Source: an uncultured Alphaproteobacteria bacterium (GTDB taxonomy: Bacteria > Pseudomonadota > Alphaproteobacteria > Puniceispirillales > UBA1172). From it: a stretch of DNA of 13,012 nucleotides. Within the stretch, counting starts at the first letter, position 1; each line of letters opens with the position of its first letter. The stretch spans positions 1 through 13,012 of the forward strand of contig CAJXME010000008.1 of NCBI GenBank assembly GCA_913056245.1. Direction: 5' to 3'. This document shows, piece after piece, positions 5,372 through 13,012 of the stretch. The notes under the pieces were generated by a model. The model was not told the DNA's origin. It saw only the letters and a program-made list of their open reading frames with translations, and searched no databases. Both the position numbers and the translations under genes were made by a program.

Positions 5372-5710
5372 GTGCCAAAAAAAGAAAACCGCGTATATTC
5401 ACGCTACACCAATGAAGCGCTTGAACTTTTATCTGGGCGCATCAAGGCAACACGTCTTGAGCGCAGGATTACAACGCAAGAGCTTTCAGAGCGCGCGGGG
5501 ATATCGCGTGGATTATTACGGCGCATTGAAAACGCAGACCCAGCCTGTGGCATTGGCGTTGTGTTTGAAGTCGCCACATTGCTGAATTTAACCTTGTTTC
5601 AATCCGATTATGACGATTTACTTGTAAAAAATAAAACGCTTGAAGACAAAATAGCACTTTTGCCAAGCCGCGCACGACGCACAAAAATGAAGGTAGATGA
5701 TGACTTCTAA
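5372..5710 (+). CDS. hipB: HipB-type antitoxin, XRE-family repressor
   Basis: A 112-residue helix-turn-helix protein. Residues about 33-75 form the XRE/Cro fold (TTQELSERAGISRGLLRRIEN, then ATLLNLTLF). The tail (about 85-112) is charged and ends in KVDDDF. In HipBA systems this partner binds and neutralises the HipA kinase and represses the operon through palindromic operators; the two sites just upstream fit. The start is GTG at 5372, fixed by AAGAGG at 5361-5366 with 5 bases of spacing. The stop lies inside hipA: the genes overlap by 14 bases in different frames, which suggests coupled translation. I am sure of the family and rely on gene order for the HipB role. Confidence 0.88.
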   Translation: MPKKENRVYSRYTNEALELLSGRIKATRLERRITTQELSERAGISRGLLRRIENADPACGIGVVFEVATLLNLTLFQSDYDDLLVKNKTLEDKIALLPSRARRTKMKVDDDF

Positions 5711-6974
5711 CGCGGGCAAAAATGAAATTTTTGTATGGATTTGGTTGCCCGGCGCAACAACCCCTATTGTTGCAGGCAAACTGACCAAACTCAATCAACG
5801 TGTGATCTTCACCTACGGCCAAAGCTATTTGAACAATCCAACAGCGATACCAATCTATGATAAAGAACTTCCCCTCGAAACTGGAGCGCAGGAAAAGCGT
5901 TTCGGGACGGAAGCCATGCCTGGATGTATTCGGGATGCGGCGCCGGATGCATGGGGGCGGCGCGTCATTCTCAATAAACTCCTAGGCGCAAAAGCCAAAA
6001 CAGTGGATGCTGGTGTTTTGGATGAATTTACCTATCTGATGGAATCTGGGTCTGATCGTATTGGCGGCATGGATTTTCAGGTCTCCCCGAAAACATATCA
6101 GCCGCGTTTAGCAGGTCAGGCTTCCCTTGAAGAATTGCGGCGCTCCGCTGAGTTGATTGAAAAAGGTGAATTATTAACCCCTGAACTCGCGCAGGCTATC
6201 CATCACGGCACTTCTATTGGAGGCGCTCGCCCAAAAGCGCTCCTTAATGATGATCAAGCAAAATATATCGCTAAATTTTCATCCAGCACGGATCATTACA
6301 ATGTGATTAAGGCAGAGTTTATGGCCATGCGGTTGGCGAAACGGTGTGCGCTGAATGTCGCGACGGTTAAATTGACCAAGGCATCTGGAAAAGATGTCTT
6401 ATTGATCGAACGCTTTGACCGAGAATTAAGAAACAATGGATGGACGCGAAAACTCATGCTCTCGGCGTTAACGCTTCTTGGGCTGGATGAAATGACGCCG
6501 CATTACGCCAGTTATGAAGATTTGGCAGAACTCATTCGTCACCGCTTTACGAATCCCAAAGAAACATTGCAAGAAATGTTCAAACGCATGGTCTTTAATA
6601 TCTTATGCGGCAACACCGATGATCACGCGCGCAATCACGCGGCTTTTTGGGATGGCAAGCATTTGACGCTGACCCCGGCCTATGATTTATGCCCTCAAAT
6701 GCGCCAAGGCGGTGAAGCCTCACAAGCCATGATGATTGCAGGCAATGACCGATCCAGCCGGCTGGTCACATGCCTAGACAGCGCAAAAAATTTCATGCTG
6801 AGTGACGCTCAAGCGCGTCAAATTATTGATGCGCAAATTCGATGCATCAAGGAACATTGGGAGGCGGTATGCGAAGAAGCAAACTTGCCGCCGATGGATC
6901 GTGCTTTATTTAAGGATCGTTTGTTTTTGAACAGCTACGCGTTCGAGCATTATCAAACATCATCTCAAAATTAG
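5697..6974 (+). CDS. hipA: HipA-type serine/threonine kinase toxin
   Basis: A 425-residue HipA-fold protein, close to E. coli HipA (440). Residues about 12-115 match the N-terminal subdomain found in HipA and HipS. The kinase core follows: P-loop-like GTSIGGARPKALL at 171-183, with Ser173 at the place of the autophosphorylated Ser150 of E. coli HipA; Lys193 for ATP; catalytic loop NTDDHARNH with Asp308; and the metal-binding YD with Asp330. All key residues seem present, so it is probably active. Characterised HipA kinases phosphorylate aminoacyl-tRNA synthetases such as GltX and stop translation; the target here is unknown. Two adjacent ATGs exist (5697 and 5700); AAGG at 5690-5693 fits the second slightly better. 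It converges on the tRNA-Gln gene, 67 bases away. Confidence 0.93.
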   Translation: MMTSNAGKNEIFVWIWLPGATTPIVAGKLTKLNQRVIFTYGQSYLNNPTAIPIYDKELPLETGAQEKRFGTEAMPGCIRDAAPDAWGRRVILNKLLGAKAKTVDAGVLDEFTYLMESGSDRIGGMDFQVSPKTYQPRLAGQASLEELRRSAELIEKGELLTPELAQAIHHGTSIGGARPKALLNDDQAKYIAKFSSSTDHYNVIKAEFMAMRLAKRCALNVATVKLTKASGKDVLLIERFDRELRNNGWTRKLMLSALTLLGLDEMTPHYASYEDLAELIRHRFTNPKETLQEMFKRMVFNILCGNTDDHARNHAAFWDGKHLTLTPAYDLCPQMRQGGEASQAMMIAGNDRSSRLVTCLDSAKNFMLSDAQARQIIDAQIRCIKEHWEAVCEEANLPPMDRALFKDRLFLNSYAFEHYQTSSQN

Positions 6975-7041: not shown

Positions 7042-7116
7042 TGGCTGGGGCGGTAGGATTCGAACCTACGGTACACGATACCAAAAACCGTTGCCTTACC
7101 ACTTGGCTACGCCCCA
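7042..7116 (-). tRNA. tRNA-Gln (anticodon UUG)
   Basis: The minus strand folds into a full cloverleaf: acceptor TGGGGCG pairing with CGCCCCA, D-arm GCC..GGC, anticodon stem ACGGT/ATCGT with loop TTTTGGT (anticodon TTG, reading CAA), T-arm GTAGG-TTCGAAT-CCTAC, discriminator G, and an encoded CCA. It closely resembles E. coli tRNA-Gln. It stands alone between the convergent hipA and the same-strand oligosaccharyltransferase gene. Its T-arm/acceptor part has a degraded partial copy at 5232-5248. Confidence 0.97.
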
Positions 7117-7183: not shown

Positions 7184-9295
7184 TTATTGCAAAACCCGAT
7201 AAACCCGCGCCGCTGGATAGCGATCCAGCACCAATTCAAGCCGCGTTTGGTCATAGGCCGCGCGATGGAAAAGCGCGTTGAAATTGCTCATCCATAACGG
7301 CATCGGCACCAGCGCTAAATTGGTTTTCTGGCCTTCGATATTCACCACCATCAGGACAAATTGCCCATTGGGGTTGATGGTTTTTTGCGCGGTTTGAAAC
7401 CCATTACGCACTTCCGCCATGGTGTGAATGATCGGCTGACCATCGAGGGTGCCGTGTTGCAAATCCAACAACCCAAGGTTGCATTCTAGTTTTTGGTCTT
7501 GCACTGGCTTGCATTGAAGGGGGTTGTATTGATAGCCGCGCAACAGCGCAGGCGGCGGCGCCACCCCATTGACCACATCATGCTTGCCGAGCGTGGCGAT
7601 GGTGTTCATCCAGCCCTGCATCTGCTGTGTCATCACCAAATATAAGGGTCGATCGGGCATCTCAGCCGCTATGATCGCTTGATTGAGGCTGTCCAAACTG
7701 GCCGCGTTGTTTTCAATGCCCAGATTGCCCTCACGGGTGATGAATTTGGTGATTTGAATCAATTCGCCGGTCTCAGCGCTCACCAAGCCGCGGGCAAAAA
7801 GATGGGTGCGCGGTGTTTGTTGGCCGCCGCCATCATGGAGCGTCGCCATGCCGCTTTTCAAATGCGCCATATAGCCGTAATCCCACCATGTCGCGATGAT
7901 GCCAGTGTTGTTTTGGTCAAACCCGCGCATCGCGCTGAAACTTTCTATGGTGGGGCGATCAAAAGACGGTTTAGGAATATAATTCAGCATCGAGGTCGAC
8001 GCGGTGGCTAAAATCAACGCCCCAGCGACCCCTAAGACAGCCCCATCCGCCGCCATCGAAAAGCCTGATGATGGGGCGCGCGCAAAAAACCGTGCCACAA
8101 GGCGGGTTGCGCTCAAAGCCAGCCAAGCCGCCCCGAACCAAACAAAAGGCGCGGCAAAAAAAGCAAACCGCCGTCCCGCGATAAACGCCAACATCCCCAT
8201 CACAAAGAACGGCAGGAAAACAAGCCCTTTAGAAGGACGCGCGATGGTGAATAACAAAAACCCAACCGCGCCAACAACGCCGATATAAGGGTGCGTTGTC
8301 ATCAACCCAAGCGTTTCGAGAAAATCAAGATGCGTCAATTCCGTGATCGTTGAAAACGTATTGGGGAAAGATAATCCAATATGATCAGTGGTCAGGTCTG
8401 CTTGGGTATTGGCGCCAGAAAGATAACCAAAGACATCCATCATAAAAGACCAAAGCGTCGCGGCAAAAAAGATCGGGTTGATTACAAGTATCACGATGGC
8501 CGTCGCCAAGAGCGCGCGTTTGACGTTAAATTGATGCGCCCAAACCGCCGCCCCCATCATCAAGGGCAGGATCACCACAAAGGGTGATTTCAAATACCAC
8601 CAGAAAAACAATTGCAGGGCGAGACCCGTTAGCATGGCTACGCCGATGGTTAGCACCATTCGTTTTTGCCGTGCCGCCAATATGATCAATGTCAGGCATA
8701 ACGCCAAAAAGAACACCACCAATTGATCGGTATCGATCCGGCCAATGGAACTGCGCACCAGATAAGTCGTGCTTAACCCCATGCCCGTGGCGGCAATCGC
8801 CCCTTCGGCGGGATAGCCAGCGGCCCAGAACATCACCCCGATCATGGCCGCGGTGAGCAATGCCGTAACAGGAATCATCATATTGCCCGCGGTGAGCAAA
8901 TCTCCGTTGGAAACCCACTCCGCCACATGGGCGATGATCACCGATAAGAGCGGCAGATCACGAAGGTTACGCGCCTCAGTATCATCAGCATTATCGGGAT
9001 AAAGGCGGCTTTGATTAAAGTCATACCCCATCACGCCGCGGCTGTAATTTTCAGCGTAACTGAGAAAATATCCCGCGTCGGTGGTGCTGACCAAAGGCGA
9101 TTGATCGGCAAAAAAGACGTCTTGGTGATCGTGCCAATACTGCCATTGATTGTGCCGCACCTCGTAATTGATCATGGCGGCCAGCGCAATCAGGATCGCC
9201 GCGCCGATCACATAACGCCAATCGCGACACGAAGTCATAAAAGGCTGAGACATCACGCGATGGTGCCATTGCTGGACTTTGGACAAAAACAACAT
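7184..9295 (-). CDS. STT3/PglB-type oligosaccharyltransferase
   Basis: A 703-residue polytopic membrane protein (C. lari PglB has 712). Hydrophobic segments fill about 28-432; about 436-703 form a periplasmic domain. Catalytic motifs in order: STTDAGYF with Asp73 (PglB Asp56); GRIDTD with Asp188 and Asp190 (PglB Asp154/Asp156); TITEL with Glu319 in the large external loop (PglB Glu319); GRRF with Arg375/Arg376 (PglB Arg375); and WWDYG at 470-474, the sequon-binding signature. It should move a glycan from a polyprenyl-pyrophosphate carrier to Asn in N-x-S/T sequons on the periplasmic side. Cys594 and Cys605 might form a disulfide. No glycan-assembly genes are in the window. It follows ispE by 67 bases, probably in the same transcript. 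Start ATG 9295; ATG at codon 15 is an alternative with a poorer ribosome site. Confidence 0.9.
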   Translation of the reverse strand: MLFLSKVQQWHHRVMSQPFMTSCRDWRYVIGAAILIALAAMINYEVRHNQWQYWHDHQDVFFADQSPLVSTTDAGYFLSYAENYSRGVMGYDFNQSRLYPDNADDTEARNLRDLPLLSVIIAHVAEWVSNGDLLTAGNMMIPVTALLTAAMIGVMFWAAGYPAEGAIAATGMGLSTTYLVRSSIGRIDTDQLVVFFLALCLTLIILAARQKRMVLTIGVAMLTGLALQLFFWWYLKSPFVVILPLMMGAAVWAHQFNVKRALLATAIVILVINPIFFAATLWSFMMDVFGYLSGANTQADLTTDHIGLSFPNTFSTITELTHLDFLETLGLMTTHPYIGVVGAVGFLLFTIARPSKGLVFLPFFVMGMLAFIAGRRFAFFAAPFVWFGAAWLALSATRLVARFFARAPSSGFSMAADGAVLGVAGALILATASTSMLNYIPKPSFDRPTIESFSAMRGFDQNNTGIIATWWDYGYMAHLKSGMATLHDGGGQQTPRTHLFARGLVSAETGELIQITKFITREGNLGIENNAASLDSLNQAIIAAEMPDRPLYLVMTQQMQGWMNTIATLGKHDVVNGVAPPPALLRGYQYNPLQCKPVQDQKLECNLGLLDLQHGTLDGQPIIHTMAEVRNGFQTAQKTINPNGQFVLMVVNIEGQKTNLALVPMPLWMSNFNALFHRAAYDQTRLELVLDRYPAARVYRVLQ

Positions 9296-9362: not shown

Positions 9363-10244
9363 TTAGGCCAAAGCGCCAGCCCATCGCCAAAACGCTTTTT
9401 CTTCAAGTGAGCCTGCCGCTTTTTTCGCCTGATCAGCGGTATCAAAAAGCGCAAAGCAAGTCGCGCCACTGCCGCTCATGCCATGGGCGCGATAGCCCTG
9501 ATGCGATGATAATCGCGATAAATCCGAAAGACATGGGCCAATTTCAGGCGCCAATGTTTGCGCGGGCGGTAGCAAATCATTGCCGCGCTCTAGCCAAGAA
9601 CTTAAATCCGAGGGCGCTTGCTCGGGGATCAATTTTGAGGATGAGGGGAAGTTGAGCCGTGTGAAGACATCTTTGGTGGATAGGCTGACTTGCGGGTTGA
9701 GCAAAATCAATCCCGCTGATGACAGAGACGGCAGGGATAATGGAGCAACCTTTTCGCCAATCCCCCACATGCGCCAAGCCTTGATGTCGCTTTGGAAATG
9801 CTTGGCCAAACAGATGGAAATATCAGCCCCAAGGGTTAGCCCTAGCGCCATCAATTCATCAGGGGGTAATGGGGTGGGGCTGTGGCGATTGAGCGCTGAT
9901 AAGACCGCCGCCGCGTCGCTTGACCCACCGCCAATCCCAGCGGCGATGGGAATGTTTTTTTCAAGATGAACCGCCAAAGGTTGCGCCCAACCAGCGGCGT
10001 TTCGATAGGCGATTATCGCCTTCATGATCAGGTTATCGCGGGGGTCAATATCCATGAGCGGTGCCGCTTGCCCACCCGCTATGATAAGGTGATCCCCATC
10101 CGCAGGCTCAAGGGTGATGACATCGGCCAGTTGAGCAAAAACCACCAGCGAATCCATCAGATGATAGCCATCGTCACGGCGACCGGTGATCGTCAAGGTG
10201 AGGTTTATTTTAGCAGGCGCATGAGCGGTGATCGGCGTCATCAT
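9363..10244 (-). CDS. ispE: 4-diphosphocytidyl-2-C-methyl-D-erythritol kinase
   Basis: GHMP-family kinase of the MEP isoprenoid pathway; it phosphorylates CDP-methylerythritol at the 2-hydroxyl. At 293 residues it has the family length. Visible blocks: APAKINLTLTITGRRDDGYHLMDSL with Lys12, the glycine-rich ATP loop PIAAGIGGGSSDAAAVLSALN at 99-119, LGADISICL with the catalytic Asp141, and the C-terminal GMSGSGATCFALF motif. The ATG overlaps the TPR lipoprotein stop (ATGA, 4 bases), so the two are translationally coupled; a second ATG follows directly. Products feed quinone and polyprenyl carrier synthesis, which the two flanking enzymes (ETF-QO and the oligosaccharyltransferase) depend on. Confidence 0.96.
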   Translation of the reverse strand: MMTPITAHAPAKINLTLTITGRRDDGYHLMDSLVVFAQLADVITLEPADGDHLIIAGGQAAPLMDIDPRDNLIMKAIIAYRNAAGWAQPLAVHLEKNIPIAAGIGGGSSDAAAVLSALNRHSPTPLPPDELMALGLTLGADISICLAKHFQSDIKAWRMWGIGEKVAPLSLPSLSSAGLILLNPQVSLSTKDVFTRLNFPSSSKLIPEQAPSDLSSWLERGNDLLPPAQTLAPEIGPCLSDLSRLSSHQGYRAHGMSGSGATCFALFDTADQAKKAAGSLEEKAFWRWAGALA

Positions 10245-12007
10245 GGGGTCGATTTCACCCGCGCGCGCTGGATTTTTTCTGTGAGCATATCCAAGGTCAA
10301 GCCATCAGCCGTTTGCCCTTCTTTGATCAAATCAAGGGCGCGTTGCCATTGGAAAACCGCTTCATGCCATCGGTCAAGCGCGGCGTAAACATCGCCCAAA
10401 TGATCCGTGATCAAAGGGTCCACCGGGCGCAAGATGACCGCTTTTTCCATGAAGACCAGCGCTTGGTCGAGATCACCCAGTTTGAAATAGCCCCAGCCCA
10501 GCGAATCCATGAAATACCCGTTATCAGGCTGTTTTTCGATCGCATCACGAATAAACCCCAGCGCTTCCTCGGCGTCACCGCCCTCTTCCAACAGCCAATA
10601 GCCAAGGTAATTAAGGGCATAGGCATCACCGCCATCCAAGGCCAGCGATTGCCGCAAGGCTTCTTCAGCGGCATCTTTTTGATCAAGCTGATCAAGAGCA
10701 AGCCCTCGGTAGTAATGCAAGCGCGCGTTCTCAGGCGTGAGGGATAACGCCTTATTATAGGCGTTCAACGCCGTGTCATAATCCCCATTCCAGCGCGCGG
10801 TATGGCCTTTCTGCATCCATAGCGCTGGATTATTGGCATCAACCGTCACCAGACGATCAAAAATACCGATCGCTTCGCGGAACAGCGCCTCATCGGATTC
10901 CGCGCCCATAAAACGAGCTTTGATGAATTGCGTTGGATGATGCCAAAGGCTCGCTTCATCGATTTGATCATGGTAAACCCGCGCTAAATCATGGCGTTCA
11001 AGATCAATGTAATAAAGCCCCAGCAAATAATTGATCATGTCGAAATCAGGGGCGATGCGTTTGGCCAAATGCAGCCGCGCGCTTTCGCTGGACGGCAAGG
11101 ATGTGCGAATGCCGGAGGCGTCAATAATAGCCTTGGCCAAGAGGGTTTCGAGCGAAGGCTTTTCAAATAACGGCGATGATCCTTGTTCAAGGGAAGACAA
11201 AACCCCATCCCGATCCAGATAAGACCCTAAATAAGGCAATAGCAATATTTTGGCCTCTTGCCTCTCACCTTGACGAGCCATCACCCCAGCCATGGCCATC
11301 GCCGATAGCGTATCGAGATTAGGATGAGCCATCGCCCGCCGCGCGGCCTCAAGCGCATCCATGGGGCGCGATAAATATTCCGACAAAAGCGCCGATTGCG
11401 TCCAAAACGCCGGTGGCCATTCGTCCTTTAAGGGCATTTGCAATTCTTTAAGCCGCGTCAGACCAGCATCCCCTTGATCTTGCAAGGCCAAAGCCCAAGC
11501 GCCCATCACCACCCCCATGGGTTGCGTCGCGCTGTCTTCAAGCAACCCATCGGCCACCACCAAGGCTCCGGACCAATCTTGCGCATCAAACGCAAGAATG
11601 AGCGCCGGCTCACTGCCATAAGCCAAAAACTGCCCGCTTTGTTGGGCGCGGCTGGCAAGAGCGGCGGCGTGATCGATATTGCCCTCGATGTAATGCGCCC
11701 GAAAACTCATCTCCAGCAAGTCCATATTATCAGGATCAGTCAGCAGGACATGGGTAAATTGGTCTGCCGCCAAGCCCATATCCGAATCGCGGCTGGCGCG
11801 TTGAGCCAATAAGAATGCCGAGGCTGGCGATGGTGATGAGCCGGGGATAAACGCGGTCGGTTGCGCGTCATCTGTATCCGTCGTGAGGGGCGACGGCGTA
11901 AGCGGTAAATGAGCCGTAGGGGCATCAAGGCTCTGGCATCCCGCAAGAAACGCCAAAAGCATCACAGGGAGCATCACCCGAAAAACCTGAAAATATTTGA
12001 CCACCAC
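10241..12007 (-). CDS. TPR-repeat lipoprotein
   Basis: The N-terminus is a lipoprotein signal: a short basic stretch (K, R), a hydrophobic core VMLPVMLLAFLAGC and a Cys just after LAG, so the protein is probably anchored in the envelope facing the periplasm. The middle is helical with weak repeats. About the last 190 residues carry at least five clear TPRs (GDYDTALNAYNKALSLTPEN, DAAEEALRQSLALD, DAEEALGFIRDAIEKQPDN, GDLDQALVFMEKAVILRP, WHEAVFQWQRALDL). No enzyme motif is seen; a scaffold role is likely. I chose GTG 12007 because AGGGG (12020-12016) lies 8 bases upstream; TTG at 12013 would leave only 2 bases. ATG at 11974 would lose the basic residues. The stop overlaps ispE by 4 bases. Confidence 0.88.
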   Translation of the reverse strand: MVVKYFQVFRVMLPVMLLAFLAGCQSLDAPTAHLPLTPSPLTTDTDDAQPTAFIPGSSPSPASAFLLAQRASRDSDMGLAADQFTHVLLTDPDNMDLLEMSFRAHYIEGNIDHAAALASRAQQSGQFLAYGSEPALILAFDAQDWSGALVVADGLLEDSATQPMGVVMGAWALALQDQGDAGLTRLKELQMPLKDEWPPAFWTQSALLSEYLSRPMDALEAARRAMAHPNLDTLSAMAMAGVMARQGERQEAKILLLPYLGSYLDRDGVLSSLEQGSSPLFEKPSLETLLAKAIIDASGIRTSLPSSESARLHLAKRIAPDFDMINYLLGLYYIDLERHDLARVYHDQIDEASLWHHPTQFIKARFMGAESDEALFREAIGIFDRLVTVDANNPALWMQKGHTARWNGDYDTALNAYNKALSLTPENARLHYYRGLALDQLDQKDAAEEALRQSLALDGGDAYALNYLGYWLLEEGGDAEEALGFIRDAIEKQPDNGYFMDSLGWGYFKLGDLDQALVFMEKAVILRPVDPLITDHLGDVYAALDRWHEAVFQWQRALDLIKEGQTADGLTLDMLTEKIQRARVKSTP

Positions 12008-12013
12008 GCGCAA

Positions 12014-12107: not shown

Positions 12108-13012
12108 TTACATATTTGGATAGGCTGGCCCGCCACCGCCTTCTGGCGTGACCCAAGTGATGTTTTGGGTGGGGTCCTTAATGTCACAGGTTTTGCAATG
12201 CACACAGTTTTGCGCGTTGATTTGCAAACGAGGGTTAGAGCCATCATCATCGCGGATGATTTCGTAAACCCCGGCGGGGCAATAACGCTGTTCTGGCGCG
12301 TCGTAAATCGCAAGGTTATGTTCAACCGGCACAGACGCGTCTTTCAAGGTCAAATGCGCGGGCTGATTTTCATTGTGATTCGTTCCCGACAGATAAACCG
12401 ATGAATTGCGATCAAAACTGACCACGCCATCAGGCTTAGGGTAGTCAATTTTCGGCATTTCCGCCGCTGGTTTCAGCGCGGTGTGATCAGCATGGTGATG
12501 GAAAGTCCAAGGCGCTTTGCCGCGGAAGAGGTAAGTGTCCAGCCCCGCATAAGCCATCCCCAGCCACAGGCCTTTGTGGAAGCCCGGGCGAATATTGCGC
12601 ACCCGATAGAGTTCATCCCACAGCCATGATTGCTCGATCTTTTCGCCATAAGTCTGTGGTTCAGCGCTAGCAGAAGCTTCGCCCGTGATCACTTCAAACA
12701 CGGCTTCGGCGGCCAGCATACCGGATTTCATCGACGTATGGGTGCCTTTAATCTTAGGCACATTGAGGAAGCCAGCGGTGCAGCCCACCAAACATCCCCC
12801 GGGGAAGGTCAATTTCGGGATCGATTGGAACCCGCCTTCGTTCAGCGCCCTTGCGCCATAGGATACGCGGCGGCCGCCTTCAAACACATCGCGGACTTTT
12901 GGATGGGTTTTGAAGCGTTGAAATTCTTCAAACGGCGACAGATGCGGGTTTTGGTAATCAAGACCGATGACATAACCCACCGCCACTTGATTGCCGTTGA
13001 GGTGATAAAGGA
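12108..13012 (-). CDS. Electron transfer flavoprotein-ubiquinone oxidoreductase, C-terminal part
   Basis: The frame stays open to the window edge (300 residues visible), so the N-terminal FAD-binding part is outside; GTG 12986 is internal. The visible start reads [22 protein letters not shown], a conserved ETF-QO stretch, followed by [11 protein letters not shown], the [24 protein letters not shown]/quinone region and the C-terminal 4Fe-4S domain: one Cys in RYCPAGVYE and three in [13 protein letters not shown], the expected four ligands. The end [10 protein letters not shown] is typical. The enzyme is membrane-associated and takes electrons from reduced ETF, fed by acyl-CoA and other dehydrogenases, to ubiquinone. 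The next gene on this strand is the TPR lipoprotein, about 100 bases on, behind a strong hairpin. Confidence 0.96.

Follow-up and report, generated by a model that had tools for sequence, protein, structure and literature searches.

N-glycosylation from a lipid carrier has been thought to be restricted to the delta- and epsilonproteobacteria (PMC4973528, 2016). For the Campylobacter oligosaccharyltransferase (OST) PglB, roles are known for the residues that activate the acceptor Asn amide (D56 and E319), bind the metal ion, contact the pyrophosphate and read the Ser/Thr at position +2 (PMC7226087). According to the same source, Ile572 in the M-x-x-I motif that follows the core helps to hold the +2 residue, with Lys at this position in archaea and eukaryotes, while Arg331, said to be conserved among the single-subunit OSTs of bacteria, reads an acidic residue at position -2. 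The PglBs of Desulfovibrio vulgaris and D. desulfuricans, which were modelled without an equivalent of Arg331, glycosylate N-x-T without an acidic residue at -2, and D. gigas PglB keeps the Arg and is nonetheless relaxed at -2; an Aquificae homologue has also been tested (PMC4894442). Here, we describe an OST gene of the STT3/PglB type on the minus strand at positions 7184..9295 of a 13,012-bp stretch of DNA, which is the entire contig C8 of a SAR116-type marine alphaproteobacterium and is referred to as the window. We suggest, with a probability of about 0.82, that this gene encodes a working bacterial single-subunit N-OST, its activity being judged from sequence and predicted fold.

In the open-access literature (subscription papers and supplements were outside the scope), we found no published description of an N-glycosylation OST in SAR116 or other Alphaproteobacteria. 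The main text of the SAR116 pangenome paper contains none of the terms glycosyl, PglB, STT3 or oligosaccharyl (PMC12262181), and the available part of a study that treats STT3/PglB relatives does not name the SAR116 group (PMC10584680). A PglL-type O-OST has been described in Prochlorococcus and SAR11 in a phosphonate context (PMC8931226).

The gene starts with ATG and encodes 703 residues, and a search of the host genome (1.74 Mb, 377 contigs, estimated 88.85% complete) returned one OST gene of this type. An initial annotation of the window had proposed an open reading frame (ORF) with exactly these boundaries and of near-normal length, a PglB-like product and an apparent alphaproteobacterial host, and all three points are borne out. 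Among the best 80 of 174 relatives, most of the best named homologues are records of the SAR116 cluster or of Alphaproteobacteria, with one metagenome-assembled genome (MAG) labelled 'Deltaproteobacteria' (L026) among them. In profile searches, the STT3 N-terminal domain PF02516 scores 25.2 bits (cut-off 24.5) and the STT3-PglB_core PF21436 scores 31.5 bits (cut-off 23), both above the curated cut-offs. Among solved structures, PglB 3rce is the best match at the sequence level (E 8e-7). The predicted fold consists of a glycosyltransferase C-type (GT-C) membrane domain and a C-terminal periplasmic domain with OST fold; it is common to the window protein and the PglBs of Campylobacter lari and C. 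jejuni (5ogl, 6gxc, 3rce) over 614-638 aligned residues at 17-18% identity, and non-OST GT-C folds score far below OST folds. Archaeal AglB and eukaryotic STT3 have the superfamily fold, the WWD motif and the metal site in common with the window OST. The identification as an enzyme of the STT3/AglB/PglB superfamily is firm.

Conservation was followed in two alignments. The order-level alignment has 15 rows, i.e. the window protein and 14 homologues from 19 other OST loci, and omits contig-end pieces (L009, L015, L019), a split copy (L020) and a near-duplicate (L012). The wider alignment has 41 rows, i.e. the window protein and 40 relatives from the best 80 of 174, and leaves out L031, which has an in-frame stop, L035, L046, L052, L068 and further rows that are partial or redundant. 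PF21436 is detected at E 0.001 in 15/15 rows of the order-level alignment. D73, R181, D190, E319, R376 and WWDYGY are invariant in all 15 and all 41 rows, and D188 is kept in 15/15 and 40/41. In family alignments, D73, R181, D188, D190, E319, R376 and WWD470-472 correspond to D56, R147, D154, D156, E319, R375 and WWD of PglB, and in the pairwise alignment with 3rce, E319 falls on E319 and Leu331 on R331. The catalytic set that the initial annotation had listed is therefore present at Asp73, Asp188/190, Glu319, Arg376 and WWDYG 470-474 and is conserved, but Arg375, which it had included, is not, being Arg in 3/15 and 3/41 rows; judged by this pattern, the functional Arg is R376 and not R375. 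The conservation of the catalytic set across both alignments is beyond chance.

If the enzyme works as PglB does, D73, D188, D190 and E319, together with R181, would hold the metal ion, R376 would bind the pyrophosphate, and ion and Arg together would position the undecaprenyl-diphosphate-linked glycan. Between them, D73 and E319 would activate the side-chain amide of an acceptor Asn, whose +2 Ser/Thr would be recognised in the periplasm by WWD470-472. The C-terminal part (about residue 441 to the end; 7184..7975, minus strand), which is periplasmic by homology, carries both WWDYG and M559-xx-W562.

It is in the acceptor pocket that the SAR116 proteins stand apart. In the ungapped block 552-569 of the wider alignment, position 562 is Ile in 10/10 rows of the Campylobacterota clade, Lys in 20/41 rows (12 Thermodesulfobacteriota, 3 Aquificota, 3 Desulfurellales, one Omnitrophota MAG and one 'Deltaproteobacteria' MAG) and N, T or S in 3/41. 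The window lacks MxxI and has Trp562, a residue found in 8/41 rows, which are exactly the window and seven SAR116/alphaproteobacterial rows, and in 15/15 rows of the order-level alignment. As far as these alignments reach, Trp562, overlooked in the initial annotation, is a clade mark of SAR116 OSTs. The Lys rows (e.g. L040, L045, L047) match the DK-type position of archaea and eukaryotes, and most of the sampled bacterial OSTs are of the Ile, Lys or Trp type. Position 331 is Leu in the window and Arg in 3/15 order-level rows, 4/8 SAR116 rows of the wider alignment and 10/10 Campylobacterota rows. The +2 pocket of the SAR116 OST is therefore probably built differently from the Ile and Lys types, and, given Leu331, an acidic residue at -2 is probably not needed; because D. 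gigas PglB keeps the Arg and yet is relaxed too, a relaxed sequon in SAR116 is a prediction only. In comparison with Campylobacter PglB, the metal, catalytic and WWD residues correspond, while the window protein has Leu for Arg331 and Trp562 for Ile572 and is encoded outside a pgl cluster. The STT3/PglB-like proteins of Thermodesulfobacteria, Aquificota and Desulfurellales, the nearest bacterial groups in the tree described below, have like catalytic residues and mostly lack Arg331, but differ in having Lys at 562. The Desulfovibrio PglBs, none of which was aligned, are likewise bacterial single-subunit OSTs; their acceptor use has been measured, whereas the SAR116 proteins are known from sequence.

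A tree with alphaproteobacterial homologues, proposed as a check in the initial annotation, puts the window protein in a SAR116 clade. This quick, unrooted maximum-likelihood tree, with the Shimodaira-Hasegawa-like approximate likelihood-ratio test (SH-aLRT) as its only support measure, has 52 rows, namely 39 of 80 listed loci, 12 loci from the genome set and the window; four loci of the genome set, on contigs equal in length to those of named loci, were taken as identical to them and each was used once. The 20 SAR116 rows, including the window, form a single clade (SH-aLRT 100), in which the families are sub-clades (99, 100, 99). The sister set of this clade, joined at 99, has five rows, i.e. 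three Desulfurellales, a 'Deltaproteobacteria' MAG and a Nitrospirae MAG.

Among 61 genomes, 21 including the host have an OST match (5/12 in the window's family, 4/5 and 12/22 in two others and 0/22 in a fourth). G006 and G022 lack the gene despite being single contigs with 99-100% completeness, so that an assembly gap is unlikely; in G002, G033 and G057, the end of the contig truncates the copy. The copy in G019 (G019:C37:4665-6742) is split over two frames and that of L031 (L031:1451-3691), from a different lineage, has an in-frame stop; in both cases, this is decay or sequencing error. Across the class, PF21436 gave two matches in 289 sampled alphaproteobacterial genomes, both in the SAR116 order, and a profile of the order-level alignment gave four in 385, three of them in the SAR116 order and one a weak match to a different WWDxG protein. 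This last protein, L155, an 849-aa frame on G075:C5, has WWDVGHW and an AELTEP loop and matches the profile with E 9.6e-10 over 98/684 positions; this GT-C-like protein of another alphaproteobacterial family may represent a second AglB/STT3-like lineage in the class. Fourteen pattern-matched viral-contig stretches encoded no relative, and there was no sign of a phage gene.

In the window, ispE (4-diphosphocytidyl-2-C-methylerythritol kinase; 9363..10244, minus strand; NF011202 271.8 bits and TIGR00154 149.9 bits, both above cut-off) lies 67 bp upstream of the OST start, in agreement with the housekeeping isoprenoid neighbour of the initial annotation, and a tRNA-Gln (TTG) gene (7042..7116, minus strand; ARAGORN) 67 bp downstream forms the other border of the slot. 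In 9/16 loci of relatives, spread over three families, the OST directly adjoins ispE; eight of these have tRNA-Gln immediately on the other side of the OST, and the ninth has a contig end there. The OST lies a few genes off within the same block in G003 and elsewhere in 6/16. We looked for empty sites in 13 of the 40 genomes without the OST; in 11/11 of those in which ispE was found, tRNA-Gln lies ~80-430 bp from the ispE match, with no OST in between. Thus, the OST was probably present in the ancestor of the three SAR116 families and from there inherited vertically, with relocations in some lineages and clean losses on repeated occasions; because of the shared slot and the tree, and with no rooted model, we infer loss rather than gain. 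The SAR116 proteins form a clade of bacterial single-subunit OSTs that is divergent, has been maintained by vertical descent and bears a mark of its own in the acceptor pocket, which is why we do not regard it as merely another PglB.

The initial annotation had proposed a genome search for flippase and glycosyltransferase partners. The host has a WecA-like phosphoglycosyltransferase (PF00953, 108.2 bits, cut-off 27; TIGR02380, 213.5 bits against a cut-off of 326), a candidate initiating enzyme, on contig C104 (5.2 kb), where it adjoins two NAD-dependent sugar epimerases; PF02397 and the Wzx flippase PF01943 were not found in the host genome, of which ~11% may be missing and in which ABC-type PglK was not searched for. 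In three relatives, G003, G005 and G039, the OST and a PF02397 transferase are 11-15 kb apart; in two more, G018 and G021, a PF00953 gene of the WecA-like kind is found at a distance of ~20 kb, the sole PF00953 match of G021 being itself WecA-like by clustering. We considered and rejected a dedicated glycan cluster at these five loci, as the genes 11-20 kb away, which include malate synthase, look like a general set for surface polysaccharides and sugar nucleotides. Around relocated OSTs, most of the scanned neighbours are metabolic and some are of glycan type: an O-antigen-ligase-domain protein adjoins the OST in G025, a sugar epimerase lies 3 kb away in G027 and a protein of the same cluster directly adjoins the OST in G035, and a group-1 glycosyltransferase lies <2 kb away in G055, with the same cluster found in G043. 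No single glycan-type gene is common to all relocated OST loci scanned.

Several observations weigh against a working N-OST. PF02516 is barely over its cut-off and reaches E 0.001 in 4/15 order-level rows, and the only NCBIfam match, the PglB equivalog NF050801, scores 70.8 bits against a cut-off of 1300. The gene is dispensable, with no match in 40/61 genomes, some of which are incomplete. No partner gene clearly tracks the OST over the 61 genomes: PF02397 is present in 9/21 genomes with and 12/40 without the OST (p 0.40), and any initiating transferase in 15/21 and 27/40 (p 1.0). Wzx PF01943 occurs in 7/21 and 4/40, with a p of 0.036 that is uncorrected for four tests. Two PF00953 matches per genome are found in 11/21 and 17/40 (p 0.59), a count in which split contigs may cause missed or double-counted genes. 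Finally, sequons are not enriched in putative secreted proteins. This comparison drew on 400 kb per genome from two genomes with the OST (G003, G016) and two that lack it (G006, G022); a home-made signal-peptide rule was applied to complete ORFs of >=120 aa, and the resulting 26-46 secreted proteins per genome give low power. The ratio of N-x-S/T to mirror S/T-x-N is 42:33 in G003, 48:72 in G016, 53:46 in G006 and 57:70 in G022, or pooled 90:105 with and 110:116 without the OST (p 0.63). The secreted set of G016 is relatively poorer in sequons than its other proteins (p 0.04), and the highest sequon ratio to shuffles (1.46) is that of OST-less G006.

The null result of the sequon test, together with the failure to find a dedicated glycoprotein glycan cluster or PF02397 and PF01943 in the host and with the surface-polysaccharide and sugar-nucleotide genes 11-20 kb away in some relatives, would fit a GT-C transferase with an OST-like fold that transfers a lipid-linked sugar to a non-protein acceptor, for example a lipid or surface polysaccharide. 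We consider this improbable, because WWDYG, the TIxE-type glutamate of external loop 5 and the C-terminal PglB domain are retained, WWD in known OSTs serves Ser/Thr recognition (PMC7226087) and non-OST GT-C folds score much lower. Even less probable is a decaying relic without a current substrate. The patchy distribution and the interrupted copies of G019 and L031 would be expected of a relic; however, the 14 other order-level rows are open and stop-free, all catalytic residues are kept at 26-52% identity, and the gene has been retained in three families over deep divergence. Recent horizontal transfer from a thermodesulfobacterial or campylobacterotal donor is the least probable of all, as the single SAR116 clade splits by family, the slot is identical in three families and the OST resembles neighbouring genes such as ribA in codon-position GC content, even though Desulfurellales and other deep lineages supply the rows closest to the order (after SAR116, the best 80 of 174 relatives run through Desulfurellales, Thermodesulfobacteria, Aquificota, an Omnitrophota MAG and Campylobacterota). 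A much older transfer, into the common ancestor of the SAR116 order, may have taken place.

The remainder of the window supports the view in the initial annotation that the gene lies apart from any glycan-assembly cluster, the neighbours being ispE, a tetratricopeptide-repeat (TPR) protein, an electron-transfer flavoprotein:ubiquinone oxidoreductase (ETF-QO), tRNA-Gln, a HipA-like pair and a response regulator. The TPR-protein gene (10241..12013, minus strand; ORF and Pfam TPR) shares 4 bp with ispE and is kept beside it in relatives, and the two likely form one transcript; judged by eye, the N-terminus of the TPR protein is lipoprotein-like. The C-terminal part of the ETF-QO gene (12108..13010, minus strand; PF05187, PF21162), conserved in the block, runs off the contig. 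On the other side, a helix-turn-helix (HTH) and HipA-like pair of the HipBA type (5372..6974, plus strand; HTH_3, HipA_C) lies between a PhoB-like regulator and tRNA-Gln. Because this regulator directly adjoins tRNA-Gln in G001 and G005, without the pair in between, the pair is probably an insertion; its hipA has a third-position GC of 0.479, below that of RibA, YggS and the OST, and the pair is outside the OST system. At the contig start (1-2351), a C-terminal sulfotransferase fragment faces a TPR-sulfotransferase, and G003 has related genes beside its OST.

A general N-glycosylation system in the SAR116 host is a plausible prediction. More tentatively, and with the odds somewhat against it, we propose that SAR116 bacteria possess an N-glycosylation system inherited from the ancestor of the order, with an acceptor pocket of a third kind (Trp, mostly without Arg331), hence a sequon rule of its own, and probably its own glycan. 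Because the OST is vertically kept in an alphaproteobacterial order with cultured members (PMC12262181), glycoproteomics is directly possible. Should the enzyme prove active, N-glycans would belong to the cell envelope of a clade that is ubiquitous in the surface ocean, and glycoengineering would gain a new kind of enzyme, with a Trp-type acceptor pocket that requires no acidic residue.
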